38,773 nt of DNA, taken from positions 1-38,773 of IMG/VR virus record IMGVR_UViG_3300046389_000491; one strand, 5' to 3'. Positions 3,971 through 28,675 of this stretch are shown here, one piece after another. The notes below the pieces were generated by a model, which was given only the letters and a program-made list of their open reading frames with translations, did not search any database and was not told where the DNA came from. A program made the translations under genes and the position numbers. The DNA is from a virus. The stretch's first letter is position 1. The number at the start of each line of letters is the position of its first letter.

Positions 3971-5863
3971 ATGGCAAATACAAGCATATTTTCAAGATTA
4001 CAAAGATTATTTTCAACTGACGTTGTTATCAGGAACGTTGGTGGTAATCAAATTAAAACAATAGATTCAGGTCATATACAATCAAGTGGCGAATATGAAA
4101 CTAATGCTTTAGTTGACCGATTTAATCGAGTATACTCAACAGCTCCTTCATCTTTATATGGAGCCCAATTTAACTTAAATTATAATTATTTAAGACCCCA
4201 ACTATATTCAGAATATGATATAATGGATCAGGATGCTATTATTGCCTCTGCTTTAGATATATTAGCTGATGAATCTACCCTTAAAAATGATATGGGTGAA
4301 GTACTTCAAATTAGAAGTTCAAATGAAGATATACAAAAAATTCTTTATAATTTATTTTATGATGTATTAAATATTGAATTTAATGCTTGGATGTGGATTA
4401 GACAAATGTGTAAGTATGGTGATTTTTTCCTAAAAATGGAAATATCAGAAAAATTTGGTGTTTATAATGTAATACCTTATACTGCTTATCACATTGAAAG
4501 AATGGAAGGTCAAAATCCTGAAAACCCATCAGAAGTAAAATTTAGATGGAATCCTGATGGATTCGCAGGTGGTTCTTATGGTTACTATAATGTACCTAAT
4601 CAAAATGTAAATGATGATAGAGGTGGTATTGTGTTTGATAATTACGAAATGGCACATTTTAGATTTGTAGCTGATGTTAATTATCTTCCTTATGGTAGAG
4701 CATATATTGAACCAGCTAGAAAATTATTTAAACAATATACATTAATGGAAGACGCGATGTTAATTCATAGAATTGCTCGTGCTCCAGAAAAAAGAGTATT
4801 TTATGTAAACGTTGGAGCTATTCCACCTAATGAAGTAGAAGCATTTATGCAGAAAACTATTTCAAGTATGAAACGTACTCCTATGATGGATGAAAAAACA
4901 GGTGAATATAACTTGAAATATAACATGCAAAATATGTTAGAAGATTTCTATATTCCTGTTCGTGGAAATGATAACGCAACAAAAATAGATACTACTCCAG
5001 GATTATCATATGATGGTATTCAAGATGTAGAATATCTAAGAGATAAATTATTTGCTGCTCTTAAAATACCTAAAGCATTCTTAGGATATGATGAAAACAC
5101 AGAAGGTAAAGCTACATTAGCAGCTGAAGATATTAGATTTGCTCGTACAATTGATAGAATACAAAGAATTATACTATCAGAATTTAATAAAATAGCATTA
5201 GTACACTTATATACTCAAGGCTATACAGATGAGACATTGACAAACTTTGAATTATCAATGACTACTCCATCTATTATATATGACCAAGAAAAAATTGAAT
5301 TATTAAAAGCTAAAACAGAATTAGCAGGTTCATTATTAGAACAAGGTTTAGTTCCATCTGATTGGATTTATCATAATGTATTCCACTTTAGTGAAGATCA
5401 ATATGATGAATATAGAGATTTAGCTCGAGAAGATGCTAAACGTCAATTTAGATTAGATCAAATAAAAGCAGAAGGTAATGACCCAGTTGCAACTGGTAAA
5501 TCATATGGTACACCTCATGATTTAGCTTCATTATATGGTATGGGTAGAACACAATCAGACCCAGCAAATGTACCTGATGGATATGCTAAAGATGATCCTA
5601 AAAAAGGAAGACCAATTGATTCAATGACTACAAGAGGTAAACAAGAAAATAATTTTGGTAAAGATCCATTAGGCGTAAAACGTATGAAAGATACAGATAA
5701 AAATGATGGTGATGGAAGACCAAGTTTAAGTGAATCAGAAAGTGCCCATGTAACTTATTTAAAAAACAAGGACATTTTTAGATCTCTTAACAAGAAAAAA
5801 TTAATATTTGAGGAAGATGAAAACACATCGTCACTACTTGATGAATCTCAACTAAAAAGCTAA
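3971..5863 (+). CDS. 20: portal protein (T4 gp20 family)
   Basis: The portal forms the dodecameric ring at the unique vertex, through which DNA enters and to which the neck attaches. At 630 residues it is longer than T4 gp20 (524), mostly through a charged C-terminal extension after about residue 500. Family hallmarks seen here include the helical block around ALDILADES (residues 93-101), the stem/clip region around IARAPEKRVFYVNVG, and the block LRDKLFAALKIPKAFLGYDE followed by an Ala-rich helix and DRIQRI. It is placed directly after terminase and before the prohead genes, as in T4. Its stop overlaps the next late-type motif. The C-terminal tail, rich in Asp, Lys, Gly and Ser, may be disordered. 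Confidence 0.95.
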   Translation: MANTSIFSRLQRLFSTDVVIRNVGGNQIKTIDSGHIQSSGEYETNALVDRFNRVYSTAPSSLYGAQFNLNYNYLRPQLYSEYDIMDQDAIIASALDILADESTLKNDMGEVLQIRSSNEDIQKILYNLFYDVLNIEFNAWMWIRQMCKYGDFFLKMEISEKFGVYNVIPYTAYHIERMEGQNPENPSEVKFRWNPDGFAGGSYGYYNVPNQNVNDDRGGIVFDNYEMAHFRFVADVNYLPYGRAYIEPARKLFKQYTLMEDAMLIHRIARAPEKRVFYVNVGAIPPNEVEAFMQKTISSMKRTPMMDEKTGEYNLKYNMQNMLEDFYIPVRGNDNATKIDTTPGLSYDGIQDVEYLRDKLFAALKIPKAFLGYDENTEGKATLAAEDIRFARTIDRIQRIILSEFNKIALVHLYTQGYTDETLTNFELSMTTPSIIYDQEKIELLKAKTELAGSLLEQGLVPSDWIYHNVFHFSEDQYDEYRDLAREDAKRQFRLDQIKAEGNDPVATGKSYGTPHDLASLYGMGRTQSDPANVPDGYAKDDPKKGRPIDSMTTRGKQENNFGKDPLGVKRMKDTDKNDGDGRPSLSESESAHVTYLKNKDIFRSLNKKKLIFEEDENTSSLLDESQLKS

Positions 5864-6751: not shown

Positions 6752-7808
6752 ACTTAGTGAAATGTCCAAAACTGCTTCACCAGAAGCAGCAGCAAAAGAA
6801 CTTGAACGTAAAGATGGAGAAGGATTCCAAGTAGGTCAAGTTACTTATGCTGCAGATGGTCAATCCAAATCTACTATTACTAATATAGATAGTGAAACAG
6901 GTGCTGTTTCTTGGAAAATTACACAATTACCTGGATTTGATAAATTATATGACGAAATGGATCAGTTAGTTGATGTATCTAAAAGAGTTTATGTTAAAAC
7001 TAAGGATGATGATAAATTTAGAGAAATTTATGATGAAGCTCGTAAATTAAGAAATAAAGTAAGAACACATCTTAGAAACGAATACCCAGACGAGTATAAA
7101 AGAATGACTAGGATTGGTGAAGCTTATAGTGGTTTTATAAGAAACCCAGAAGACCCAGATTACAAAAAATTTGAACCAACTTCTCAAAGAATAAAGGGAA
7201 AAGTAGATCAATTTAAAGAAGATTTAAGAACATTATTTGGTAAATTTAAAGGTGATTTAAATAATCCTGATTTTATAAGAGGAGTAGCTGAAATAATGGT
7301 TAGTTGGAAATCACTTTTAAGAAGTCAAATGTCTGAAACTGATGTAGATGAAGCGTCAATGTCAGGTGCAGCTGGTGCTTATAATACACCATATGCTTTT
7401 GTAAGAAAAAAATTAAAAAAAGGTAAAAAGAAAAAAGGAGTTAAAATGAATAAACCTTCAGGTTTAGTCAATTATATGGATTATTCTGTTAATGAAGGTA
7501 ATGAAGAAGCTATTACTTATTTTCAACAAGCAATAAAGTTAAGTCATACTAATAAAGTAAGAAACCTTATATTAAAAGCTGCTAAAGAATTAGGGTTAGA
7601 AATCCCTAAAGTATGGACAGAAACTGTAAATGAAAATAACAAAAACCCAGGAGCAACATTAGGCCCAGGCCCTAAAGCAAGTGAAAATGGGGTAGCAGAT
7701 AATGCATATGTAAAACAATTTAAATATAAACTAGTTAAGAAAAATAAAGACGGTACTTATGTACAGCCTCCATCAACTTTACCAGTTCGTAAACTTTGGG
7801 GAGAATAA
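6735..7808 (+). CDS. head-region protein of unknown function
   Basis: This 357-residue protein starts inside the end of the preceding gene. Its N-terminal third is charged and helical. A low-complexity linker with a SMSGAAGAYNTPYAF segment and a Lys-rich patch (KKLKKGKKKKG) follows near residues 210-235, then a helical domain (about 250-290) and a C-terminal Gly/Pro/Lys-rich tail. The 'GAYxTPYAF' linker style recurs in proteins near the protease and scaffold genes of marine T4-like phages, as I recall. No enzymatic motif is visible. A minor core or scaffold-associated protein cleaved or lost during maturation is one guess. The next late-type motif follows 2 bases after the stop. Confidence 0.6.
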   Translation: MAYKYKLSEMSKTASPEAAAKELERKDGEGFQVGQVTYAADGQSKSTITNIDSETGAVSWKITQLPGFDKLYDEMDQLVDVSKRVYVKTKDDDKFREIYDEARKLRNKVRTHLRNEYPDEYKRMTRIGEAYSGFIRNPEDPDYKKFEPTSQRIKGKVDQFKEDLRTLFGKFKGDLNNPDFIRGVAEIMVSWKSLLRSQMSETDVDEASMSGAAGAYNTPYAFVRKKLKKGKKKKGVKMNKPSGLVNYMDYSVNEGNEEAITYFQQAIKLSHTNKVRNLILKAAKELGLEIPKVWTETVNENNKNPGATLGPGPKASENGVADNAYVKQFKYKLVKKNKDGTYVQPPSTLPVRKLWGE

Positions 7809-16514: not shown

Positions 16515-18521
16515 ATGGCAGAAACATTAATATCTCCAGGTGTATTAGCAAGAGAAAATGATCAATCCTTCATTGGAGCACCACCAATTTCATTTGGTGC
16601 TGCAATAATTGGACCAGCAGTTCAAGGTCCAGTTGGAATTCCAACGGCAGTATCTTCATTCTCGCAATACGAAGCTATATTCGGAGGGTCAATTGAAAGT
16701 GGCTCACGATCATACTCATACCTAAACTCAGCAGCAGCATCTAATTACTTCCAACAAGGTGGTGAATCATTACTAGTCGTAAGAGTAGTTAGTGGATCAG
16801 CAGGATGGTCAGAAGCTTCATCTTCAATTGATAATATAGCTACTACCCCAGCAGGAGTACTGAGAACTGACATTAATATGTCTGCTTCTATTTCAGCAAA
16901 TACTCTTGCAAGTCAAGTTGCAGGAACACATGCTTTAGGTACAGTTACTGGTGGAGCAGGAAATTCAGCAGCAGGAACATATACAGTAACTGCAGATGGA
17001 GTTGTTACTTCAGTTAATTTTACAGCAGGACAAGCTTATGTAGCTGGTAACGCATTAACCGTTCAAGGAAGTCAAGGAGGAGGAAGTGGAACATTTGTAA
17101 TTACTCTTAAAGCTTCAGATTTAGAAAGTGAAGTAGCATTTAAATTATCTACAATATCAGAAGGTGCTGTAATGAATAATTACCAAGCAGGACCAGATAG
17201 TGCAAATGGTACATTAACAAATGGTACTAGAAATAATGTAAGATGGGAAATTACAGGTGCTAATACAGGATCTGGACAATTTTCATTAGCTATTAGACGT
17301 GGTAATGACACAGCTACTCAAAAAGCAGTATTAGAACAATACAATAACTTATCAATGGATCCATTGGCTGCAAATTATGTAGAAAAAGTTATTGGTAATA
17401 CTTACTACTCAGTAGAACAAGATGGTGTTGATTATTATGTAAAATCAAATGGTGAATATCCAAACAATAGTGCTTATGTTTATGTAAGCGCAGTAAATTC
17501 ACCTACACCAAATTATTTTGATAATAATGGAGCAGCTAAACCAGCATATTTTACAAGCATTCCAGCTATAGGATCAGGTTCGTTCCAAGGTGGTAGTGGT
17601 AATAATATAGCAATGGGGCCTGTGAAATTTAACGAAAATATCACGAATACAAACATTCAAGGATTAATTGCAGCAGAATATACACAATCATTAAACTTAT
17701 TGTCAAATACCGATGCTTACAACTTTAATGTAATTACAGCTCCAGGACTAATTAACTCATTATCAGATCACTCACCAGTAGTATCTCAGATGGTAGCATT
17801 AGCTCAATCAAGAACTGACTGTATTGCAGTAGTTGATTTAGTACCTTATAACAGTACAGTAAATACTGTAGTAACTCAAGCATCAGCATTTGATAGTTCA
17901 TATGCAGCAACATATTGGCCTTGGCTACAATCAATTGACGCAAACGCTCAGTATGTTTGGTCGCCAGCTTCTGTGTTTATACCGGGAGTATACGCATTTA
18001 CAGATGCTTCTTCAGACCCATGGTTCGCACCAGCAGGTCTAATTAGAGGTGCGCTAGGTAACGTAGTTAAAGCAGAAAGAAAATTAACATCAGGTAACAG
18101 AGATAACCTATATGAAGCAAATGTTAACCCAATTGCAACATTCCCAGGAAGTGGAGTTGTAGTATTTGGACAGAAAACATTACAGAAAAGAGCAAGTGCT
18201 TTAGATAGAGTAAATGTACGTAGATTATTAATAGCATTAAAATCATACATTGTACAAGTATCAGATAACTTAGTATTTGAACAAAATACAATAAGCACAA
18301 GAAATAATTTCTTAGCACAAGTTAACCCATACTTAGAAAGTGTACAACAAAGACAAGGTTTATACGCGTTTAAAGTTGTAATGGATGCTACAAATAACAC
18401 ACCAGATGTAATCGATAGAAACGAGCTAGTAGGACAAATTTACTTACAGCCAACTAAAACAGCTGAATTCATAATTCTAGATTTCAATGTTTTACCAACT
18501 GGAGCAACATTTCCATCATAA
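16515..18521 (+). CDS. 18: contractile tail sheath protein (T4 gp18 family)
   Basis: The sheath surrounds the tail tube and contracts during injection. The 668-residue length is near T4 gp18 (659). The N-terminus SPGVLARENDQSFIGAPPIS matches the sheath opening, and SQYEAIFGG and NYFQQGG are typical. The C-terminal half has AYVWSPASVFIPGVYAFTD-type segments and the conserved AERKLTSGNRDNLYEANVNP and NVRRLLIALKSYI blocks that form the inner, tube-contacting domain. Residues about 120-203 form a Gly/Thr/Val-rich insert similar to one in the neck protein. The tube gene follows 46 bases downstream. Confidence 0.96.
   Translation: MAETLISPGVLARENDQSFIGAPPISFGAAIIGPAVQGPVGIPTAVSSFSQYEAIFGGSIESGSRSYSYLNSAAASNYFQQGGESLLVVRVVSGSAGWSEASSSIDNIATTPAGVLRTDINMSASISANTLASQVAGTHALGTVTGGAGNSAAGTYTVTADGVVTSVNFTAGQAYVAGNALTVQGSQGGGSGTFVITLKASDLESEVAFKLSTISEGAVMNNYQAGPDSANGTLTNGTRNNVRWEITGANTGSGQFSLAIRRGNDTATQKAVLEQYNNLSMDPLAANYVEKVIGNTYYSVEQDGVDYYVKSNGEYPNNSAYVYVSAVNSPTPNYFDNNGAAKPAYFTSIPAIGSGSFQGGSGNNIAMGPVKFNENITNTNIQGLIAAEYTQSLNLLSNTDAYNFNVITAPGLINSLSDHSPVVSQMVALAQSRTDCIAVVDLVPYNSTVNTVVTQASAFDSSYAATYWPWLQSIDANAQYVWSPASVFIPGVYAFTDASSDPWFAPAGLIRGALGNVVKAERKLTSGNRDNLYEANVNPIATFPGSGVVVFGQKTLQKRASALDRVNVRRLLIALKSYIVQVSDNLVFEQNTISTRNNFLAQVNPYLESVQQRQGLYAFKVVMDATNNTPDVIDRNELVGQIYLQPTKTAEFIILDFNVLPTGATFPS
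16872..17123 (+). other. inserted beta-rich domain in the sheath protein
   Basis: Residues about 120-203 contain TVTGGAGNSAAGTYTV and AGNALTVQGSQGGGSGTF and then the strand VITLKAS, after which the sheath sequence resumes (FKLSTISEGAVMNNY). The pattern matches the insert at 13935-14249 in the neck protein. Confidence 0.55.
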
Positions 18522-18567: not shown

Positions 18568-19056
18568 ATGGCAGTATTAGACCCAAACGAAATATTTTTC
18601 ACAGCTTTTGAGCCAAAACAAAAGAATAGATTTATTCTTTATGTAGATGGAATCCCATCTTACCAGATTAAAGGTATGGGAGCTGTAACAATCTCACAAG
18701 GCACAGTAGCTTTAAATCATATCAACGTTCAAAGATTTGTAAAAGGTAAATCTACTTGGAACCCAATTTCAATGACGTTATTTGATCCAATTACACCATC
18801 AGGTGCTCAAGCAGTAATGGAGTGGGTTAGATTACATCACGAATCAGTAACAGGTAGAGATGGATATAGTGATTTCTATAAAAAAGATCTAACATTAAAT
18901 GTACTAGGACCTGTAGGTGATATCGTATCTGAATGGATTATAAAAGGTGCAATCATTACTTCAGCAGATTTCGGAGATTTCAATTGGGACACTGAAAATG
19001 CCGCTCAAGAAATTAGCTTAGAAGTACAACCAGATTACTGTATATTAAATTTCTAA
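18568..19056 (+). CDS. 19: tail tube protein (T4 gp19 family)
   Basis: The tube subunit stacks in hexameric rings inside the sheath. The 162 residues are almost identical in length to T4 gp19 (163). Characteristic features are the start DPNEIFFTAFEPKQKNRFIL, the strand YQIKGMG, and a central ISMTLFDPITPSGAQAVMEW. The C-terminal strand pair includes WIIKGAIITSADFGDFNW and ISLEVQPDYCIL. It lies directly after the sheath gene with its own late-type motif and is followed by a hairpin terminator, suggesting strong, separately controlled expression. Confidence 0.96.
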   Translation: MAVLDPNEIFFTAFEPKQKNRFILYVDGIPSYQIKGMGAVTISQGTVALNHINVQRFVKGKSTWNPISMTLFDPITPSGAQAVMEWVRLHHESVTGRDGYSDFYKKDLTLNVLGPVGDIVSEWIIKGAIITSADFGDFNWDTENAAQEISLEVQPDYCILNF

Positions 19057-19158: not shown

Positions 19159-19887
19159 ATGAGTGATTTTAAATTCCCCACGGAAGAAGTAGATTTACCC
19201 TCTAAAGGATTAATTTATTCAAAAGAAAACCCACTATCAAGCGGTAAAGTAGAAATGAAATATATGACTGCTAAAGAAGAAGATATTCTTTCTAACCAAG
19301 CTTATATTCAAAAAGGTGTAGTATTAGATAAATTATTAAAATCATTAATTGTTGATGATAAAATTAATATTGATGATTTAATTGTAGGAGATAAAAATGC
19401 ATTATTGATTGCATCTAGAGTATTAGGTTACGGTAAAGATTATAAAGTAACAGTAGATGAATCAGAACATACTATTGATGTATCTACTTTAGAAAATAGA
19501 AAATTCGATGAATCTAAATATGAAGCAGGTAAAAATGAATTTTCATTTACATTACCAACCTCAGGAACAATTATTACATACCAATTAGTAACTGGAAAAC
19601 TTGAAAAAGCAATTGAAAGAGAAATTGCTGGACTAAAGAAAATAAGTAAAGATTCTGCAGCCACTTTAAGTACAAGATATAAACATATGATATTATCAGT
19701 TGATGGTAATGAGGAAAAGAAATATATCAGAGAATGGGTTGATAAAGCATTTTTAGCACGAGATTCTAGAGCCTTCAGAGAACACATTAAAAATAGTCAA
19801 CCAGATGTTGATTTGTCCTATATTTTGGACAATGGGAAGGAGGTAGTTGTACCCATTGGGTTGAACTTTTTTTGGCCTGACGCTTAA
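19159..19887 (+). CDS. 26: tail/baseplate hub assembly protein (T4 gp26-like), possible frameshift donor
   Basis: The 242-residue protein shows DLPSKGLIY (12-20) and YMTAKEEDIL (35-44), motifs I recall from proteins annotated as baseplate hub subunit gp26 in marine T4-like phages (T4 gp26: 208). The later RYKHMILSVDG and DKAFLARDSRAFREHI fit the same family. It ends NFFWPDA. In T4, gene 26 is followed by gene 51; here a gp51-like frame follows in the +1 register, and the overlap contains a T7 run in the final codons. By position before the tape measure it corresponds to the tail-assembly chaperone gene of other phages. The likely product in zero frame is an assembly factor, not a virion part. 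Confidence 0.78.
   Translation: MSDFKFPTEEVDLPSKGLIYSKENPLSSGKVEMKYMTAKEEDILSNQAYIQKGVVLDKLLKSLIVDDKINIDDLIVGDKNALLIASRVLGYGKDYKVTVDESEHTIDVSTLENRKFDESKYEAGKNEFSFTLPTSGTIITYQLVTGKLEKAIEREIAGLKKISKDSAATLSTRYKHMILSVDGNEEKKYIREWVDKAFLARDSRAFREHIKNSQPDVDLSYILDNGKEVVVPIGLNFFWPDA
19865..19884 (+). other. candidate programmed +1 (or -2) ribosomal frameshift window
   Basis: The +1 frame has a TGA at 19862-19864 and is then open to 20170, while the zero frame stops at 19885-19887. The only place to change frame is therefore this 20-base window, which holds a run of seven T residues at 19867-19873 (zero frame TTT TTT TGG). A +1 slip on Phe TTT would join gp26-like residues 1-238 to 98 residues of the downstream frame. 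A -2 slip would give the same fusion with one extra Phe. A sequencing indel in the T run is the main alternative. Confidence 0.55.
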
Positions 19888-20170
19888 GACCGCACCCCTA
19901 GCAAGGAAGAATTTATTTAAAGTGATCCATGATATAGTATTTCATGGTAATGGTGGATTTGATTATCACACTGTTTATAATATGCCTATCTGGCTACGAA
20001 AATTTACATTTAAAGAAATCCAGGACCATTTTGACGCTCAGAATGCTGAAATGAAAAAATTAGATAAAAAGAAAGGGGAAAAAAATATGGTAAATGCAGA
20101 TGGTAAAATAAATGTACCTGACTTCAAACAAGCAAGTGCTCCATATAAAGGTAAAACAAGTTATAAGTAA
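19874..20170 (+). CDS. 51: gp51-like hub assembly frame, probably expressed as a frameshift extension
   Basis: Read in the +1 frame relative to the gp26-like gene, this encodes GLTLKTAPLARKNLF followed by a segment with FHGNGGFDYHTVYNMPIWLR. I recall the GGF...VYNMPIWLR(K/R)F pattern from small proteins after gene 26 in T4-like phages (gp51, baseplate hub assembly). There is no ATG before the internal Met of YNMPIW (19982); the only alternative start is a GTG at 19922, with no obvious initiation signal. The C-terminal part is Lys-rich and ends QASAPYKGKTSYK. Expression as a gp26-gp51 fusion would parallel the G/GT tail chaperones. The stop is 24 bases before the tape measure ATG. Confidence 0.6.
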   Translation, partial: GLTLKTAPLARKNLFKVIHDIVFHGNGGFDYHTVYNMPIWLRKFTFKEIQDHFDAQNAEMKKLDKKKGEKNMVNADGKINVPDFKQASAPYKGKTSYK

Positions 20171-20172
20171 TA

Positions 20173-20186
20173 ATATTTATAATAAA
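20173..20186 (+). promoter_or_regulatory. late-type motif ATATTTATAATAAA, copy 9
   Basis: An exact copy begins 2 bases after the gp51-like stop. Its core ends 12 bases before the tape measure ATG. Confidence 0.55.
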
Positions 20187-20194
20187 ACCTATTA

Positions 20195-22564
20195 ATGGCG
20201 GCCGATCCTAAAAAAATTCAAGAACAATTAAAGCAAATCCAGTCTTTATATGATAGACTTGGAAAAATCAACCCTTATGCAGGAATGGATGCTGGGGAAA
20301 TTTCTAAGTCTGTAAATGAAGTTAAAAAGTTAGAAAATGCTTTAATGGGGGTTCAATCTCAAGTAGAGAATATGAGCCAGTCTTTCTCTGATTTAAGTGC
20401 CCAATTAGAAGCAACCATAAATGAAATATCAAAAGGACCTACTGCAACACAAAAATTTGCTAAAGGTTTTAAAGGGGTACTTGCTGAAGTAAAAAAATTA
20501 AAATATGAAGAAGAAGGCCTTGATAGTTTAAATCTAAGACAGCTTCAAAACCTTAAAAAAAGAGCTCTTAAAAGAACAGCAGATGCTAAAGAGGCAGCGA
20601 TCCAATTGCTTCAAGAATCTGGTCTTCAAGGTATGATCAATGAAAAAATTGATAAAAGAACAAAAGCATATAAAGACCTTACTGACGCTCAAAAATCAGC
20701 ACTTGGATTCTTACAAAAAGAAGACAAAACTGTTGAGTCTATAAACAATAAGATTAATAATAGAATAAAGAAAGAGAAAGAGTTATTAGAAAGAATGGGC
20801 GGCACAGGTGCTGCGTTAAAGGGGATAGAAGGGCTTCTACAAAAAATAGGTTTAGGTGATTTATCGAATGCCATGGGCTTCGATCAAATTAATGCGGATT
20901 TAAGAGAATTTGCTGAAACTGGAGCAAGCAGTCAAGAAATATTTCAAAAAGGAATTGAATTATCTGGTGAAGCTATCGAAACAGCCCTCAAAGATCCACT
21001 AGTTCAAGTAGCTATAGCAGCAAAAGCCTTTGCTACTGGGTTTAAAATGTCAATTGGGGCAGTAATAAAAGGCATAAAACAACTAGAAGAAGATACAGGA
21101 AAACTAGCTAAAAATCTAAATGTAGGTGCTCAAGAAGCTAGACAAATGTCAGAAGACTTTGCAGCAGCAGCTATCGGAAGTGATAGATTATTTGTTTCTA
21201 GTGAAGGGTTAGCACAAAGTACTGTAGATATAAATGATGCTTTAGGTACAACTGTTAGATTTAATGCCGAAAACTTAGCTACATTTACAAAGTTAAGAGA
21301 AACAGCAGGTCTAACTAGTGAAGAAATGATGGGGATACAAAAATTATCCCTTGCAACAGGACAATCTTTTGATGATATTGCAGATTCAACATTAAAACAA
21401 GTAGCAGCCCTAAATGAATCAACAGGAATACAGATAAATTCTAAAAAGGTTATGGCTGAGATTGCAAATACATCTGAAGCCACACAATTATCTTTAGGAA
21501 AAAGTGGTCCTGCATTAGCAGCAGCAATTACTACTGCAAAAGGTTTAGGTATGGAATTATCTAAAGTAGAGGATATTGCAGGAAGTATTTTAAATTTCGA
21601 ACAATCAATACAAGATGAATTAGCAGCTGAATTACTGTTAGGTAAAAATATTAATTTAGAAAAAGCAAGACAAGCAGCATTAAATAATGACCTTGAAACA
21701 GTAGCAACAGAAATAGCTAAACAAGCAGGATCAGCAGCTGAGTTTGCAGAAATGAATAGAATTCAACAAGATGCATTAGCTAAAGCTGTTGGTATGTCTA
21801 GAGATGAGTTAGGTAAAACTTTATTTATACAAGAACAATTAAAAGGAGCTAGTGGTATTGATAAAGAGAATAGAGCTAAAATGCTAGAATCTCTAACAGA
21901 TCAATATGGTTTAGAAAAAGCCCAACAAATGTTAAAAGAAAAAGGGTTAAAAAACTTATTAAACCAAGCTAGTGAAACAGAAAAAATACAAGCATCATTT
22001 GATAAAATAAATGAATTTGTTAAAAAGATAGGAGCTGCATTTGCTCCTGTTGTAGAAATGATGGGTAGTGTAGCATCCGCCCTTGCACAATCAGAAGTTG
22101 CTATGGCAGCTTTAGTAGGTATTCTTGGTGCTGTTGGAGTAGCATTAACAGTAGTAGCAGGTAAAGCATTATTAAATTTTGCAATTTCTGTTGGTCAGAT
22201 GTTTGCAAAAGTAGTTGGTGGAATGTCAGCTTTAGGACCTCCAGGTGTTATAGCAGGTTTAGCATTAGGGGGAGTAGCAGTTGCTGGTGCCATAGGTGCT
22301 TATCAGTCATTAAAAGCAGATGATATGGCAATGGCTCCTTCATCACCTGGTTATGGTGATAGAATATTATCAACACCTAAAGGTTCAATTTCATTAAATA
22401 ATGAAGATACTGTAGTAGCAGGAACTAACTTAGGAGGAGGTAATGGTAAAGCAATGGCAGCAATGGCTAATTCTTTAAAAACAATAGCACAATCATCAGC
22501 TGAAACGGCTAAAGGTCTTAAACGACAAAAACCAGTACCTTTATATCAAATAACGAGAGGTTAA
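20195..22564 (+). CDS. tail tape measure protein (role of T4 gp29)
   Basis: This 789-residue protein is mostly helical, with long coiled-coil stretches at about 5-75 and 120-200. The Ala-rich middle resembles phage tail tape measure proteins (for example LATGQSFDDIADST near 390). Two hydrophobic segments lie at about 636-665 and 683-702, as in other tape measures that insert into the host membrane. The C-terminus contains GYGDRILSTPKGSISLNNED, which I recall from tape measures of marine T4-like phages. Its position after the chaperone-like genes and before baseplate genes fits. T4 gp29 is 590 residues, so a longer tail may be expected, but length rules differ between families. Confidence 0.87.
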   Translation: MAADPKKIQEQLKQIQSLYDRLGKINPYAGMDAGEISKSVNEVKKLENALMGVQSQVENMSQSFSDLSAQLEATINEISKGPTATQKFAKGFKGVLAEVKKLKYEEEGLDSLNLRQLQNLKKRALKRTADAKEAAIQLLQESGLQGMINEKIDKRTKAYKDLTDAQKSALGFLQKEDKTVESINNKINNRIKKEKELLERMGGTGAALKGIEGLLQKIGLGDLSNAMGFDQINADLREFAETGASSQEIFQKGIELSGEAIETALKDPLVQVAIAAKAFATGFKMSIGAVIKGIKQLEEDTGKLAKNLNVGAQEARQMSEDFAAAAIGSDRLFVSSEGLAQSTVDINDALGTTVRFNAENLATFTKLRETAGLTSEEMMGIQKLSLATGQSFDDIADSTLKQVAALNESTGIQINSKKVMAEIANTSEATQLSLGKSGPALAAAITTAKGLGMELSKVEDIAGSILNFEQSIQDELAAELLLGKNINLEKARQAALNNDLETVATEIAKQAGSAAEFAEMNRIQQDALAKAVGMSRDELGKTLFIQEQLKGASGIDKENRAKMLESLTDQYGLEKAQQMLKEKGLKNLLNQASETEKIQASFDKINEFVKKIGAAFAPVVEMMGSVASALAQSEVAMAALVGILGAVGVALTVVAGKALLNFAISVGQMFAKVVGGMSALGPPGVIAGLALGGVAVAGAIGAYQSLKADDMAMAPSSPGYGDRILSTPKGSISLNNEDTVVAGTNLGGGNGKAMAAMANSLKTIAQSSAETAKGLKRQKPVPLYQITRG

Positions 22565-22608: not shown

Positions 22609-22839
22609 ATGGGTCTATTAGATAAATTAACATCAGGTAAAACTCAATTATCAGGCTTGAATGGTCAAACACCAAGTGTTCCTAATTTTCAACAGTCTAC
22701 TTTACATAAGGATTATTCTATAGTAGGAAAACCTAATGCACAAGAAGTAAAACCAGAAAACGGAGTACTACCTTTACCATCAACTTTGGAAAGAGCAGTA
22801 TCACCACAAGACAAATATTTGAATAATTTGCCAAAATAA
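22609..22839 (+). CDS. small proline/asparagine-rich structural-type protein, unknown
   Basis: The 76-residue protein starts MGLLDKLTSGKTQLSGLNGQ and has a central STLHKDYSI and a C-terminal LPLPSTLERAVSPQDKY. It has few predicted helices and many polar turns, suggesting an extended peptide that wraps a partner. I recall short proteins of this style beside the baseplate genes of marine T4-like phages, without known function. It leads an apparent operon of baseplate genes (six bases to the next start) behind the last late-type motif. Confidence 0.6.
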   Translation: MGLLDKLTSGKTQLSGLNGQTPSVPNFQQSTLHKDYSIVGKPNAQEVKPENGVLPLPSTLERAVSPQDKYLNNLPK

Positions 22840-25063: not shown

Positions 25064-28000
25064 ATGGGGAACATTGTAGGAGAACAATTTGAAAATTATG
25101 TCCTTAACCAAATAAGAGTAAGGCAAAATCTCTATGGAAGTGGGGTAGGGGAAGATTCTCTACGAAATCAAAACCAACTTCAATTACTCAATAATAAACA
25201 AGCTTGGTTAAAAATGGCATCATCAGTTGCTGTAGTAGGTAATTCTTCACCTTCAATATTTAATAAAACTTCAGGAGAATATGTAGACGCTAATATTAGT
25301 ACTGGAGAGAAAAGATTAAGGGATATAGGTATTACAAATACAGATGAATTTGTAGGTAGTGGATTAGCTGAAAAAACAGTATTATTTAATACATTATCAA
25401 CTTTAAATCCAACATCTTACGATGATGATGGAACTACGGTTGATATTGAAGGTAATTACAATTTTAGATCTGGGGTAAGTAAAACTAATTCTTTATGGAA
25501 TAATTCAAATTCATACGGTTTAGGAGGTACAAATAAAGGTTTAGTACCTGCACCTGGATTAATTTCATTTACTATGGATTCCCAAAATAGAGGATCTATT
25601 AGAAAAGGTACAATAGAGTTAAAATGTTATAATAGGTTCCAGTTTGAGTTAATAGAATTAGTATACCTTAGATTAGGTTTTACTTTAATGATTGAATGGG
25701 GATGGGATAAGTATACTACAAATGGAAAAGATATAAATAATGTTGGTAATACAATTATTGAGGATAAATGGTTCCAAAATAATACTAACATGACTCAACT
25801 TGAAATGATTAATTCTATTAAGGCTTATCAAGAATTATATCATGGTAATTATGATGGTTTTTATGGTAGGGTAACTAACTTTAATTGGTCATATGATACT
25901 GATGGTACTTATGGTGTTAGTATAGATTTAATATCTGTAGGAGATGTAATTGAATCATTAACATTAGCTACAAAATCAACAGCATTATCAGTAAAAGAAA
26001 TAAATGCCACTACAGGATCAAATGCTTTTGAAAATACAGGATTAACAGCTGATGATTCACCAATAGTATCAAACGCGGGTAGTACAGCTTTATCTCAAGA
26101 TATGTTTACTGATATATTAGGACAAAAATGGGATGCTGAGCAATCCAATTTTACTAACCCATCATTATACTTTAATAATTTTGAGTCTTCTCAAAAAGCT
26201 AATGAAGCAGGTTCTTTAGATAAATATAATTACTATATGACTTTTGGGGAGTTAGTAAGAAAATTAGAAACATATTGTATCCCAAAATTATTAAATGATT
26301 TCGGAGAAGCATCAGAAATGATTTATTTTGATTCTAATACAGACACAAATTTATGTGTAGCTTTTCCAAATCAAATATCATTAGACCCTAGAGTTTGTCT
26401 TATAAGACCTCCACTTGCAATTAATTCTCAAGAACAAAGTTCAACAACTTGGTTATACAATAACGCTGGGTGGGCAAGATTAAAACCATTTGCACAAACA
26501 CAAGATTTTGGAGATAAAACTGTTATATATGGGCAAATAATGAATATTTATCTTAATTATGATTTTATTTCAAAATTATTAGCAAAAGCAACTGATGAAA
26601 CTGATAGAGGTAAACAAGTTTCTATATTTTCATTTTTAACAAATATATGTGATGGTATTAATGATGCTTTAGGTGGTATTAATAACTTAGAGGTAGCATT
26701 AAAAAATGATAATACTATTACCATAGTAGAACAAAATACTATACCAGGAATAGAAGCACTTTCTTTTAATAAAGGAAAAATGAATTCTATCCCTTCATTT
26801 AATGTTTATGGAGTAAAAAAAGATAGAGGAAGTTTTGTAACTGATTTTAATTTTGATACAAAAATTACACCCGAATTAGCAACTATGATTTCTGTTGGTG
26901 CAACAGCAGCGGGAGGGAATACTAAAGACTATGATGCAACTGCTTTTTCTAAATGGAATGTTGGGTTATATGATAGATACAATAAAGAATTTATAGATCC
27001 TGCTTTAGATGCTATAATGAAAGAACAATTAGCATTAGCAGATCAAGCTAATGAATTAGGAATAACGAGTTTTAGAGATATTACATCAATACAAGCAACA
27101 CAATTATATAATGCTTGGACAGGAGGTGAAGAAGATAGAGGTCACGACGAAGTAGTACAAGATGCATTTAATGCTGTAGCAGATGGAGCATACACAGCAG
27201 TTGAAGGTTTAGGTCATGCCACAGATGCAGCAGCAGAATTTGCCGTAGATATTTACAACTCAGTTGGTAACTGGTTTAGGGATGATGATGAACAAGTATC
27301 TACTTTTGGAACAGACAATGTAGCAAATATAACTAATCCTGATTTATCAGAGAGAAGAGATGATAATTATTCTCAAAACAAAACTTTTAAAGCTTGTGGG
27401 GTTGAAAATAAAGGATATAGAATAGCTTTAGTTAACTCAGTTTACCCCTTTGTAGGTGAAGACACTAATGGTGGGTTAAACTGGGAAGAGTATGTTAATA
27501 AAGTAGCAGATTATTTACATGCTGAGAAGATGAAGAAAATTACAGGGCAAATGAGCCATGAAGAATTGGCAGCTAAATTTTCAAATAATTATATTTTTTA
27601 TTTAACAAGACTATTAGGGGGTGATTTTGCAGCAGGAACTAATGATTCTGCTGGTGCAGTCGCAAGTAAAGATAAAATAGGTTATACGGCTAAAAATAAA
27701 TACGCTTACTTTTTATATAACGACGCTATTATAAAAGAAGGAAAAGCTGCATTTAATGCTTATGTTACAACTATTAATAATACACTTTATCAAAAAACTG
27801 GAGCACCATCAGGAATGATAGGTTTTATTCCTATAGATATGAGTTTAACATTTGAAGGATTATCAGGTGTTAAAATATATAATCAAATTAATGTTGAACA
27901 AGGGTTTTTACCTAATCAATATCCTAAAACTTATAAATTTTTAGTTTCAAAGGTAAACCATGAAATATCAGAAAATTCATGGTCAACATCTATTGATACT

Positions 28001-28675
28001 GTCACTATCCCAAGAACATTCGTTTCAGGTAAATTTAATTTCTCAGAATTATCAGAAGCAGCAGAAACTTATGTTACAGGTGGAGGAAATGGAAAACCAG
28101 AATATTTAGGACCAACACCAAATGCTGATAGAGTTAGAGAATATATAAAACCAATACCACAGATAGAAGAAAAACTATCAGGCCAAGATGGTGGAGGAGG
28201 ATATACAGTAGGTATAGATGCAGATGGTAATTTAAAAGGAGAATTAACTAGTGGAGGAGATATTTCATCTGCAGGTGCTGATATGACAATTGCTGTTTTA
28301 CAAGCTATGAGAACAGAAGCTCCAAATATAAGAATTACAATAACAGCAGGTAATGATTTATATCACCATAATAAAGTTAAAAACTATACAAGTAGACATG
28401 AGATAGGTAACGCTATTGATTTTACCATTAATAACCCAACAGCTACTAATTTAGAATTAGTTAAAAAAGTATTAAATAGTTTCATTGTAGGTCCTAAAAA
28501 TTGGTATTATTTAGATGAATATGGAGAACCAACAGCAGTAGCATCAGGTGCTCACTTCCATTTATCGTTACCAAGACCTGAAAGAGTTATAAAAGGATCG
28601 GATCCAAGAGTAAATGCAGAAATATTAGATGCTCAAGCACAGTTTAGAGCAGGAAAAATAACTAAATTACCATAA
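25064..28675 (+). CDS. baseplate hub protein with C-terminal M15-type peptidase domain
   Basis: This is a 1203-residue protein. The N-terminal region has FTMDSQNRGSIRKGTIELKC and LRLGFTLMIEWGWDKY, segments I recall from hub proteins of marine T4-like phages. The later part has GFIPIDMSLTFEGLSGVKIY, typical of gp27/gp5-like hub cores. Residues about 1060-1180 form a separate domain with SRHEIGNAIDF (H1112, D1119) and AHFHLSL (H1164, H1166), the zinc-ligand pattern of M15/VanY-type peptidases that cut peptidoglycan peptides. T4 uses a lysozyme in gp5 for the same step, so this domain probably opens the cell wall during injection. A Gly-rich linker (near 1040, QDGGGGYT) joins it to the hub. Confidence 0.8.
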   Translation: MGNIVGEQFENYVLNQIRVRQNLYGSGVGEDSLRNQNQLQLLNNKQAWLKMASSVAVVGNSSPSIFNKTSGEYVDANISTGEKRLRDIGITNTDEFVGSGLAEKTVLFNTLSTLNPTSYDDDGTTVDIEGNYNFRSGVSKTNSLWNNSNSYGLGGTNKGLVPAPGLISFTMDSQNRGSIRKGTIELKCYNRFQFELIELVYLRLGFTLMIEWGWDKYTTNGKDINNVGNTIIEDKWFQNNTNMTQLEMINSIKAYQELYHGNYDGFYGRVTNFNWSYDTDGTYGVSIDLISVGDVIESLTLATKSTALSVKEINATTGSNAFENTGLTADDSPIVSNAGSTALSQDMFTDILGQKWDAEQSNFTNPSLYFNNFESSQKANEAGSLDKYNYYMTFGELVRKLETYCIPKLLNDFGEASEMIYFDSNTDTNLCVAFPNQISLDPRVCLIRPPLAINSQEQSSTTWLYNNAGWARLKPFAQTQDFGDKTVIYGQIMNIYLNYDFISKLLAKATDETDRGKQVSIFSFLTNICDGINDALGGINNLEVALKNDNTITIVEQNTIPGIEALSFNKGKMNSIPSFNVYGVKKDRGSFVTDFNFDTKITPELATMISVGATAAGGNTKDYDATAFSKWNVGLYDRYNKEFIDPALDAIMKEQLALADQANELGITSFRDITSIQATQLYNAWTGGEEDRGHDEVVQDAFNAVADGAYTAVEGLGHATDAAAEFAVDIYNSVGNWFRDDDEQVSTFGTDNVANITNPDLSERRDDNYSQNKTFKACGVENKGYRIALVNSVYPFVGEDTNGGLNWEEYVNKVADYLHAEKMKKITGQMSHEELAAKFSNNYIFYLTRLLGGDFAAGTNDSAGAVASKDKIGYTAKNKYAYFLYNDAIIKEGKAAFNAYVTTINNTLYQKTGAPSGMIGFIPIDMSLTFEGLSGVKIYNQINVEQGFLPNQYPKTYKFLVSKVNHEISENSWSTSIDTVTIPRTFVSGKFNFSELSEAAETYVTGGGNGKPEYLGPTPNADRVREYIKPIPQIEEKLSGQDGGGGYTVGIDADGNLKGELTSGGDISSAGADMTIAVLQAMRTEAPNIRITITAGNDLYHHNKVKNYTSRHEIGNAIDFTINNPTATNLELVKKVLNSFIVGPKNWYYLDEYGEPTAVASGAHFHLSLPRPERVIKGSDPRVNAEILDAQAQFRAGKITKLP

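Follow-up and report, generated by a model that had tools for sequence, protein, structure and literature searches.

The window, i.e., the whole stretch of 38,773 nucleotides analysed here, is an IMG/VR virus record and carries the T4-like markers T4-type terminase, gp20 portal, and gp23 capsid, and its tail genes are arranged in the order sheath, tube, tail assembly chaperone (TAC), and tape measure. The TAC pair is placed between the tube gene (18568-19056) and the tape measure gene (20195-22564). The features at the locus, all on the plus strand, are as follows:

16515-18521, plus strand: tail sheath protein (PF04984, PF17482; phrog_23, E 4.6e-74)
18568-19056, plus strand: tail tube protein, gp19-like (phrog_4542, E 1.5e-23; PF06841, E 1e-4, below the curated cut-off)
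19159-19887, plus strand: ORF of the short tail assembly chaperone, TAC-N, gp26/gp51-like, 242 amino acids, zero frame (phrog_150, E 2.4e-7)
19867-19881, plus strand: conserved shift region TTT TTT TGG CCT GAC (from the 15-mer scan of viral contigs)
19870-19873, plus strand: putative slip tetramer, P-site TTT at 19870-19872 plus the first T of the A-site TGG (variants keep YTT-T)
19874-20170, plus strand: candidate frameshift extension, T-like domain, 98 amino acids plus stop, +1 frame (open, conserved, and constrained by pN/pS)
19885-19887, plus strand: zero-frame stop TAA, end of the short form (read from the sequence)
19922-19924, plus strand: GTG once proposed as an independent start, not conserved (comparison of relatives)
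19982-20005, plus strand: MPIWLRKF motif of the extension, conserved (alignment of 54 distinct extensions)
20195-22564, plus strand: tape measure protein, 789 amino acids (BLASTP against the annotated Flavobacterium phage immuto tape measure, E 1e-45)

The positions that an earlier note on this DNA gave for the locus (the ORF at 19159-19887, the frame open over 19865-20170, the run of seven T residues, the TAA at 19885, and the GTG at 19922) hold to the base. The +1 frame is closed upstream by a TGA at 19862-19864 and is then open from 19865 to 20170, and the T run, at 19867-19873, is read TTT TTT TGG in the zero frame. The short form has 242 amino acids; the joined product had been expected to have 336-337 residues, and is computed to have 336 amino acids after a +1 shift and 337 after a -2 shift. 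The pair had also been placed directly before the tape measure gene, and the ORF at 20195-22564 is indeed homologous to the immuto tape measure. Because immuto infects Flavobacterium, a Bacteroidota host is our guess for the window's phage. Right behind the tape measure gene is a 76 amino acid ORF with no family match (window 22609-22839), and a 1203 amino acid ORF further on (window 25064-28675) has a weak endolysin-family match near its C-terminal end.

The zero-frame protein of the window matches phrog_150 over residues 5-118 (E 2.4e-7) and no Pfam family above cut-off, PF12322 included; among its relatives, 49/49 match phrog_150 (best 3e-24) and 28/49 match PF12322 (best 7.9e-21). T4 gp26 and gp51 both belong to these same two families and are thus paralogues. 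By hhalign, the TAC-N profile matches the cyanophage-type gp26 profile (E 2.6e-9), which in turn matches T4 gp26 (E 3.9e-15), the C-terminal FF being in register in both comparisons. A first, narrower profile of the extension compared weakly with the cyanophage and T4 extensions, and a deeper profile was needed. The window-type extension matches the cyanophage extension with E 3.2e-7 (4.7e-8 with more members), and the cyanophage extension matches the C-terminus of T4 gp51 with E 1.6e-9; reversed-profile decoys for the extension comparisons gave E of at least 0.19, and of at least 0.36 beside the window-type/cyanophage comparison. The label "gp51-like" given to the second frame therefore stands by way of the cyanophage extension (E about 1e-7, then 1.6e-9), whereas the direct match of the window extension to T4 gp51 is weak (E 0.009-0.017).

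The AlphaFold model of TAC-N (pLDDT 90.8) has BFVD matches that include the Bacillus SP-15 baseplate hub subunit and T4-like baseplate hub assembly proteins, and a Foldseek search of the PDB gave no match under E 0.001 for either this model or that of the T4 gp51-like protein. When the TAC-N model was compared with PDB chains by VIA-align, the best was the HK97 TAC (2ob9; Z 4.0, rmsd 3.5, with the next row within Z 1), an alignment of 76 residues at 7% identity that is too weak to build on; the rows listed for the T4 gp51-like model included no tail chaperone.

A homology search with the zero-frame protein yielded 80 IMG/VR loci, and nearly all of those reaching far enough carry TTT(T/C)TT_TGG_CCT_GA near the stop, together with a homologous +1 extension. 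Viral contigs were also scanned for the 15-mer TTTYTTTGGCCTGAC, so that these loci were not picked by homology. There were at least 120 matches; 118 of the 120 listed form the end of an ORF matching the TAC-N profile, and a homologous +1-frame extension lies behind 113 of the 120. Bacterial genomes scanned in the same way had 118 matches, 0/118 of them in a TAC-N gene or with an extension, and since none is in a TAC-N gene the bacterial matches are chance. Conservation of the junction is confirmed as far beyond chance and is not a sequencing artefact.

Codon columns were compared over 135 distinct genes with identities reaching as low as about 40%. Of the 238 columns, that of the P-site codon shows the strongest synonymous constraint, and the three columns highest in synonymous identity are the P-site TTT, the CCT, and the GAC. 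The P site holds TTT in 130 genes, CTT in four, TTG in one, and TTC in none, compared with 21% TTC among Phe codons elsewhere. CCT is present in 134/135 genes, and the Asp codon is GAC in 84 of the 86 genes with Asp, versus 19% elsewhere; dual coding would by itself suffice to conserve CCT and GAC in this way, the +1 frame reading GGC CTN ACN. Conservation of the P-site TTT is better explained by a slip because the codon preceding it does vary (121 TTT, 13 TTC, and one CTT); AAC and AGC are the commonest codons one position further upstream. The A-site codon is TGG in 132/135 genes and TAY in the other three, the replacements being TAT or TAC only, with the T retained. The site variants TTTCTTTGG, TTCTTTTGG, CTTTTTTGG, and TTTTTTTAY (variants in codon form: TTT_CTT_TGG, TTC_TTT_TGG, and TTT_TTT_TAY) retain YTT in the P site with a T after it, and L272 is the only variant that does not. 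The earlier expectation that the slippery T run would be conserved is thus correct for the junction but not for the run of seven T residues itself.

Downstream of the site, pN/pS in the +1 frame across 46 distinct sequences is 0.52 over codons 7-16, which precede the GTG, and 0.21 beyond it, against 1.0 to 1.5 in the other frames. The residues upstream of 19922, which had been thought to look like real protein, accordingly behave as such, and the ratios indicate purifying selection on the extension from the shift site onward.

The sequence basis for our reading is thus the conserved junction, +1-frame coding, the family, and the gene order, and we consider it highly probable that the TAC of this T4-like phage is made in two forms from one gene by a programmed +1 frameshift. 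A programmed frameshift was the central claim of the earlier note, and it is supported by the conserved junction and extension and by the variants, some of which have no long homopolymer. We infer the occurrence of shifting, its rate, and the binding partners of the two products. Most ribosomes would finish at the TAA at 19885 and release the 242 amino acid short form; in a minority, the peptidyl-tRNA-Phe would stand on UUU 19870-19872 with UGG waiting in the A site, move forward one base, and re-pair with UUU 19871-19873, whereupon GGC would enter the A site and a 336 amino acid long form with a 98 amino acid C-terminal domain would be made. If the products act as lambda gpG/gpGT do, the tape measure protein should be coated by the short form and receive tail tube subunits through the extension. 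In both systems a short chaperone gene lies between the tube and tape measure genes and continues, through a frameshift close to the 3' end (putative in the window), into an extension without its own start (Xu, Hendrix, Duda), but lambda shifts -1 whereas the window site would shift +1 at UUU_UGG. Conservation, synteny, and family membership support the G/GT-like chaperone reading that had been offered for the pair.

Whether the shift would be +1 or -2 had been left open. In a -2 shift the ribosome would move back by two bases along the T run and arrive in the same frame, adding one extra Phe for a product of 337 amino acids, and the window's own seven T residues permit this. However, in the TTC_TTT_TGG genes (L261-L273) a -2 slip would put tRNA-Phe on UCU, with a mismatch at the middle base, and nearly every site variant keeps the YTT-T that a +1 shift requires; the +1 shift is thus the one that fits the variants, and a -2 shift is unlikely.

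The variants fit a +1 slip in the P site from YUU to UUU, like that of the RF2 gene prfB, in which the site is CTTT_GAC as compared with YTTT_GGC in the window's lineage; in both, a P-site YTT is followed by T. The slippery sequence of prfB is CTTT, and some prfB genes have a T tract (PMC12421855). The A site of prfB is a TGA stop, whereas here it is a Trp codon. Furthermore, prfB has a Shine-Dalgarno-like stimulator, whereas no purine-rich stretch of this kind was found before the P site at the prfB spacing, and seven folded stretches at or just after the shift site gave no RNA structure (z -0.71 to +0.75). The slip would therefore take place without a known stimulator beyond the codons themselves, and such a compact +1 site would be a suitable object of study. 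The influenza PA-X site, UCC_UUU_CGU (PMC3498833), also uses a UUU codon for a +1 shift, but it belongs to an unrelated gene of a eukaryotic virus and has CGU where the window has UGG in the A site; the TTT CGT of GXN1 and L282 resembles it.

We judge it slightly less likely again than a -2 shift that the extension is a separate gp51-like protein, begun at an internal start such as the GTG at 19922 or by coupling at the overlap. This is how annotators have treated it: in immuto (L001) the extension is a separate hypothetical ORF at 6903-7013, and in Mel-JY01 (L084) an overlapping one at 4776-5012. It is also the arrangement in L272 and L276, in which the extension follows the TAC-N stop as an ORF that has its own ATG and lies in another frame. 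Nevertheless, the GTG, which is the first in-frame start codon of the window extension, is not conserved among relatives, no other start is conserved at or after 19922, and in 27/46 relatives none of the first 36 extension codons is ATG, GTG, or TTG; the earlier view that the gp51-like frame has no independent start thus survives the comparison. Purifying selection is already apparent before the GTG is reached, and coupling would require much less constraint than the shift-site codons show. As to L272 and L276, the former has lost the slip codon itself (TTC_TTG_TAT_CCT) and the latter the CCT_GAC context (TTC_CTT_TGG_CCA_GAT), and the two may be regarded as a natural control, having apparently switched from a frameshift to a separate gene. 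Misannotation of the extension is suggested for published genomes such as immuto and Mel-JY01. In L073 the +1 extension ends after 28 residues where those of close relatives go on, which is either an assembly error or a broken copy.

The seven T residues are also a possible site of polymerase slippage, which would yield mRNAs in both frames, but conserved relatives with TTTCTTTGG or TTCTTTTGG have runs of only three or four T residues at the same junction, making transcriptional slippage very improbable. Least probable of all is that a sequencing error in the homopolymer, or decay of the gene, accounts for the frame break, error prone though homopolymers are and without an evident start though the extension alone would be, because the junction recurs in 118 of the 120 contigs listed from the scan and in 135 distinct genes to about 40% identity, and is kept in independent contigs at sites without a long homopolymer.

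T4 gp26 and gp51 resemble the window's products in belonging to the phrog_150/PF12322 family and in consisting of a short form and one with a C-terminal extension, but in T4 these are two divergent genes with no frameshift between them, whereas the window has one gene with a putative +1 shift. The earlier note was right that T4 genes 26 and 51 are adjacent, but they are divergently transcribed, so that no frameshift in T4 itself could join them. T4 gene 26 ends in GAG TTC TTT GAG TTA CTA TAA, with no YTT_T shift site of the window type. T4's two genes may replace frameshifting.

Other members of the T4 superfamily have sites at the same place. In the cyanophage S-PM2 and all the relatives read, gp26 ends in T_TTT_TTC with a conserved extension in the -1 frame; in S-PM2 this is annotated as a gp51 starting at an internal ATG that many relatives lack. 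The same T_TTT_TTC is found in Vibrio ValKK3, Aeromonas G2, and Stenotrophomonas BUCT608, and T_TTT_TTT in Sinorhizobium phiM7. The gp51 of cyanophages and marine vibriophages is without its first ~200 residues (Sullivan et al. 2010, PMC3037559), a shortness that would be accounted for by a -1 shift out of gene 26. The distant relatives SP-15, L282, GXN1, and LR756508, few in number as sequences, have a +1-frame extension with TTT then C at the site, and SP-15, L282, and GXN1 share (V/T)PD after the Phe codons. The TAC-N of cyanophages and schizoT4 vibriophages thus has the same FF codons followed by an extension in another frame, the cyanophage one being homologous to the window's, but the frame is -1 rather than +1. 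On balance we favor a single homologous FF site at which direction has changed: -1 in cyanophages and schizoT4 vibriophages, +1 in the window clade and probably in SP-15 and GXN1, and none in T4. A direction switch at one conserved position, with both products kept, would be unusual if true, and the presence of +1 and -1 sites at homologous FF codons suggests that the T4 superfamily makes wide use of frameshifting.

A review (PMC5009743) described G-T frameshifting as widely conserved "except T4"; its +1 case for a TAC gene is one, graded very likely, in the archaeal virus HSTV-2. That gp26/gp51 is the T4 version of G/GT, as the earlier note proposed, is supported but is not a new idea: as reported in PMC10885494 and PMC12846349, T4 gp26 and gp51 were recognized as the short and long TAC forms by Vladimirov, Gautam, and Davidson (2022). 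According to these secondary accounts that work proposed another mechanism, and its title suggests a non-frameshift route; the PRFect paper (PMC10885494) cites it for certain T4-like phages having a short gene and a long fused one. PMC12846349 describes polyT -1 signals as known for T4-like TAC-N genes. The TAC assignment is therefore already known and the -1 sites probably are. In the literature searched, which did not include the 2022 paper itself, there was no report of a +1 site in a T4-like TAC gene, and a conserved +1 frameshift in the window's lineage looks new, its site falling on the FF codons that hold a -1 site in cyanophages and vibriophages.

Several single genomes gave further observations. 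Streptococcus phage GXN1 (L086) has TTC TTT CGT in place of the shift site, and L282 also has TTT CGT. In the uncultured phage LR756511 (L088), an ATG in another frame comes after the TAC-N stop, and the -1 frame carries the extension. Finally, the Ackermannviridae phage Marshall (Salmonella, L523) has a -1-frame ORF behind its hub gene, with no clear slippery site.
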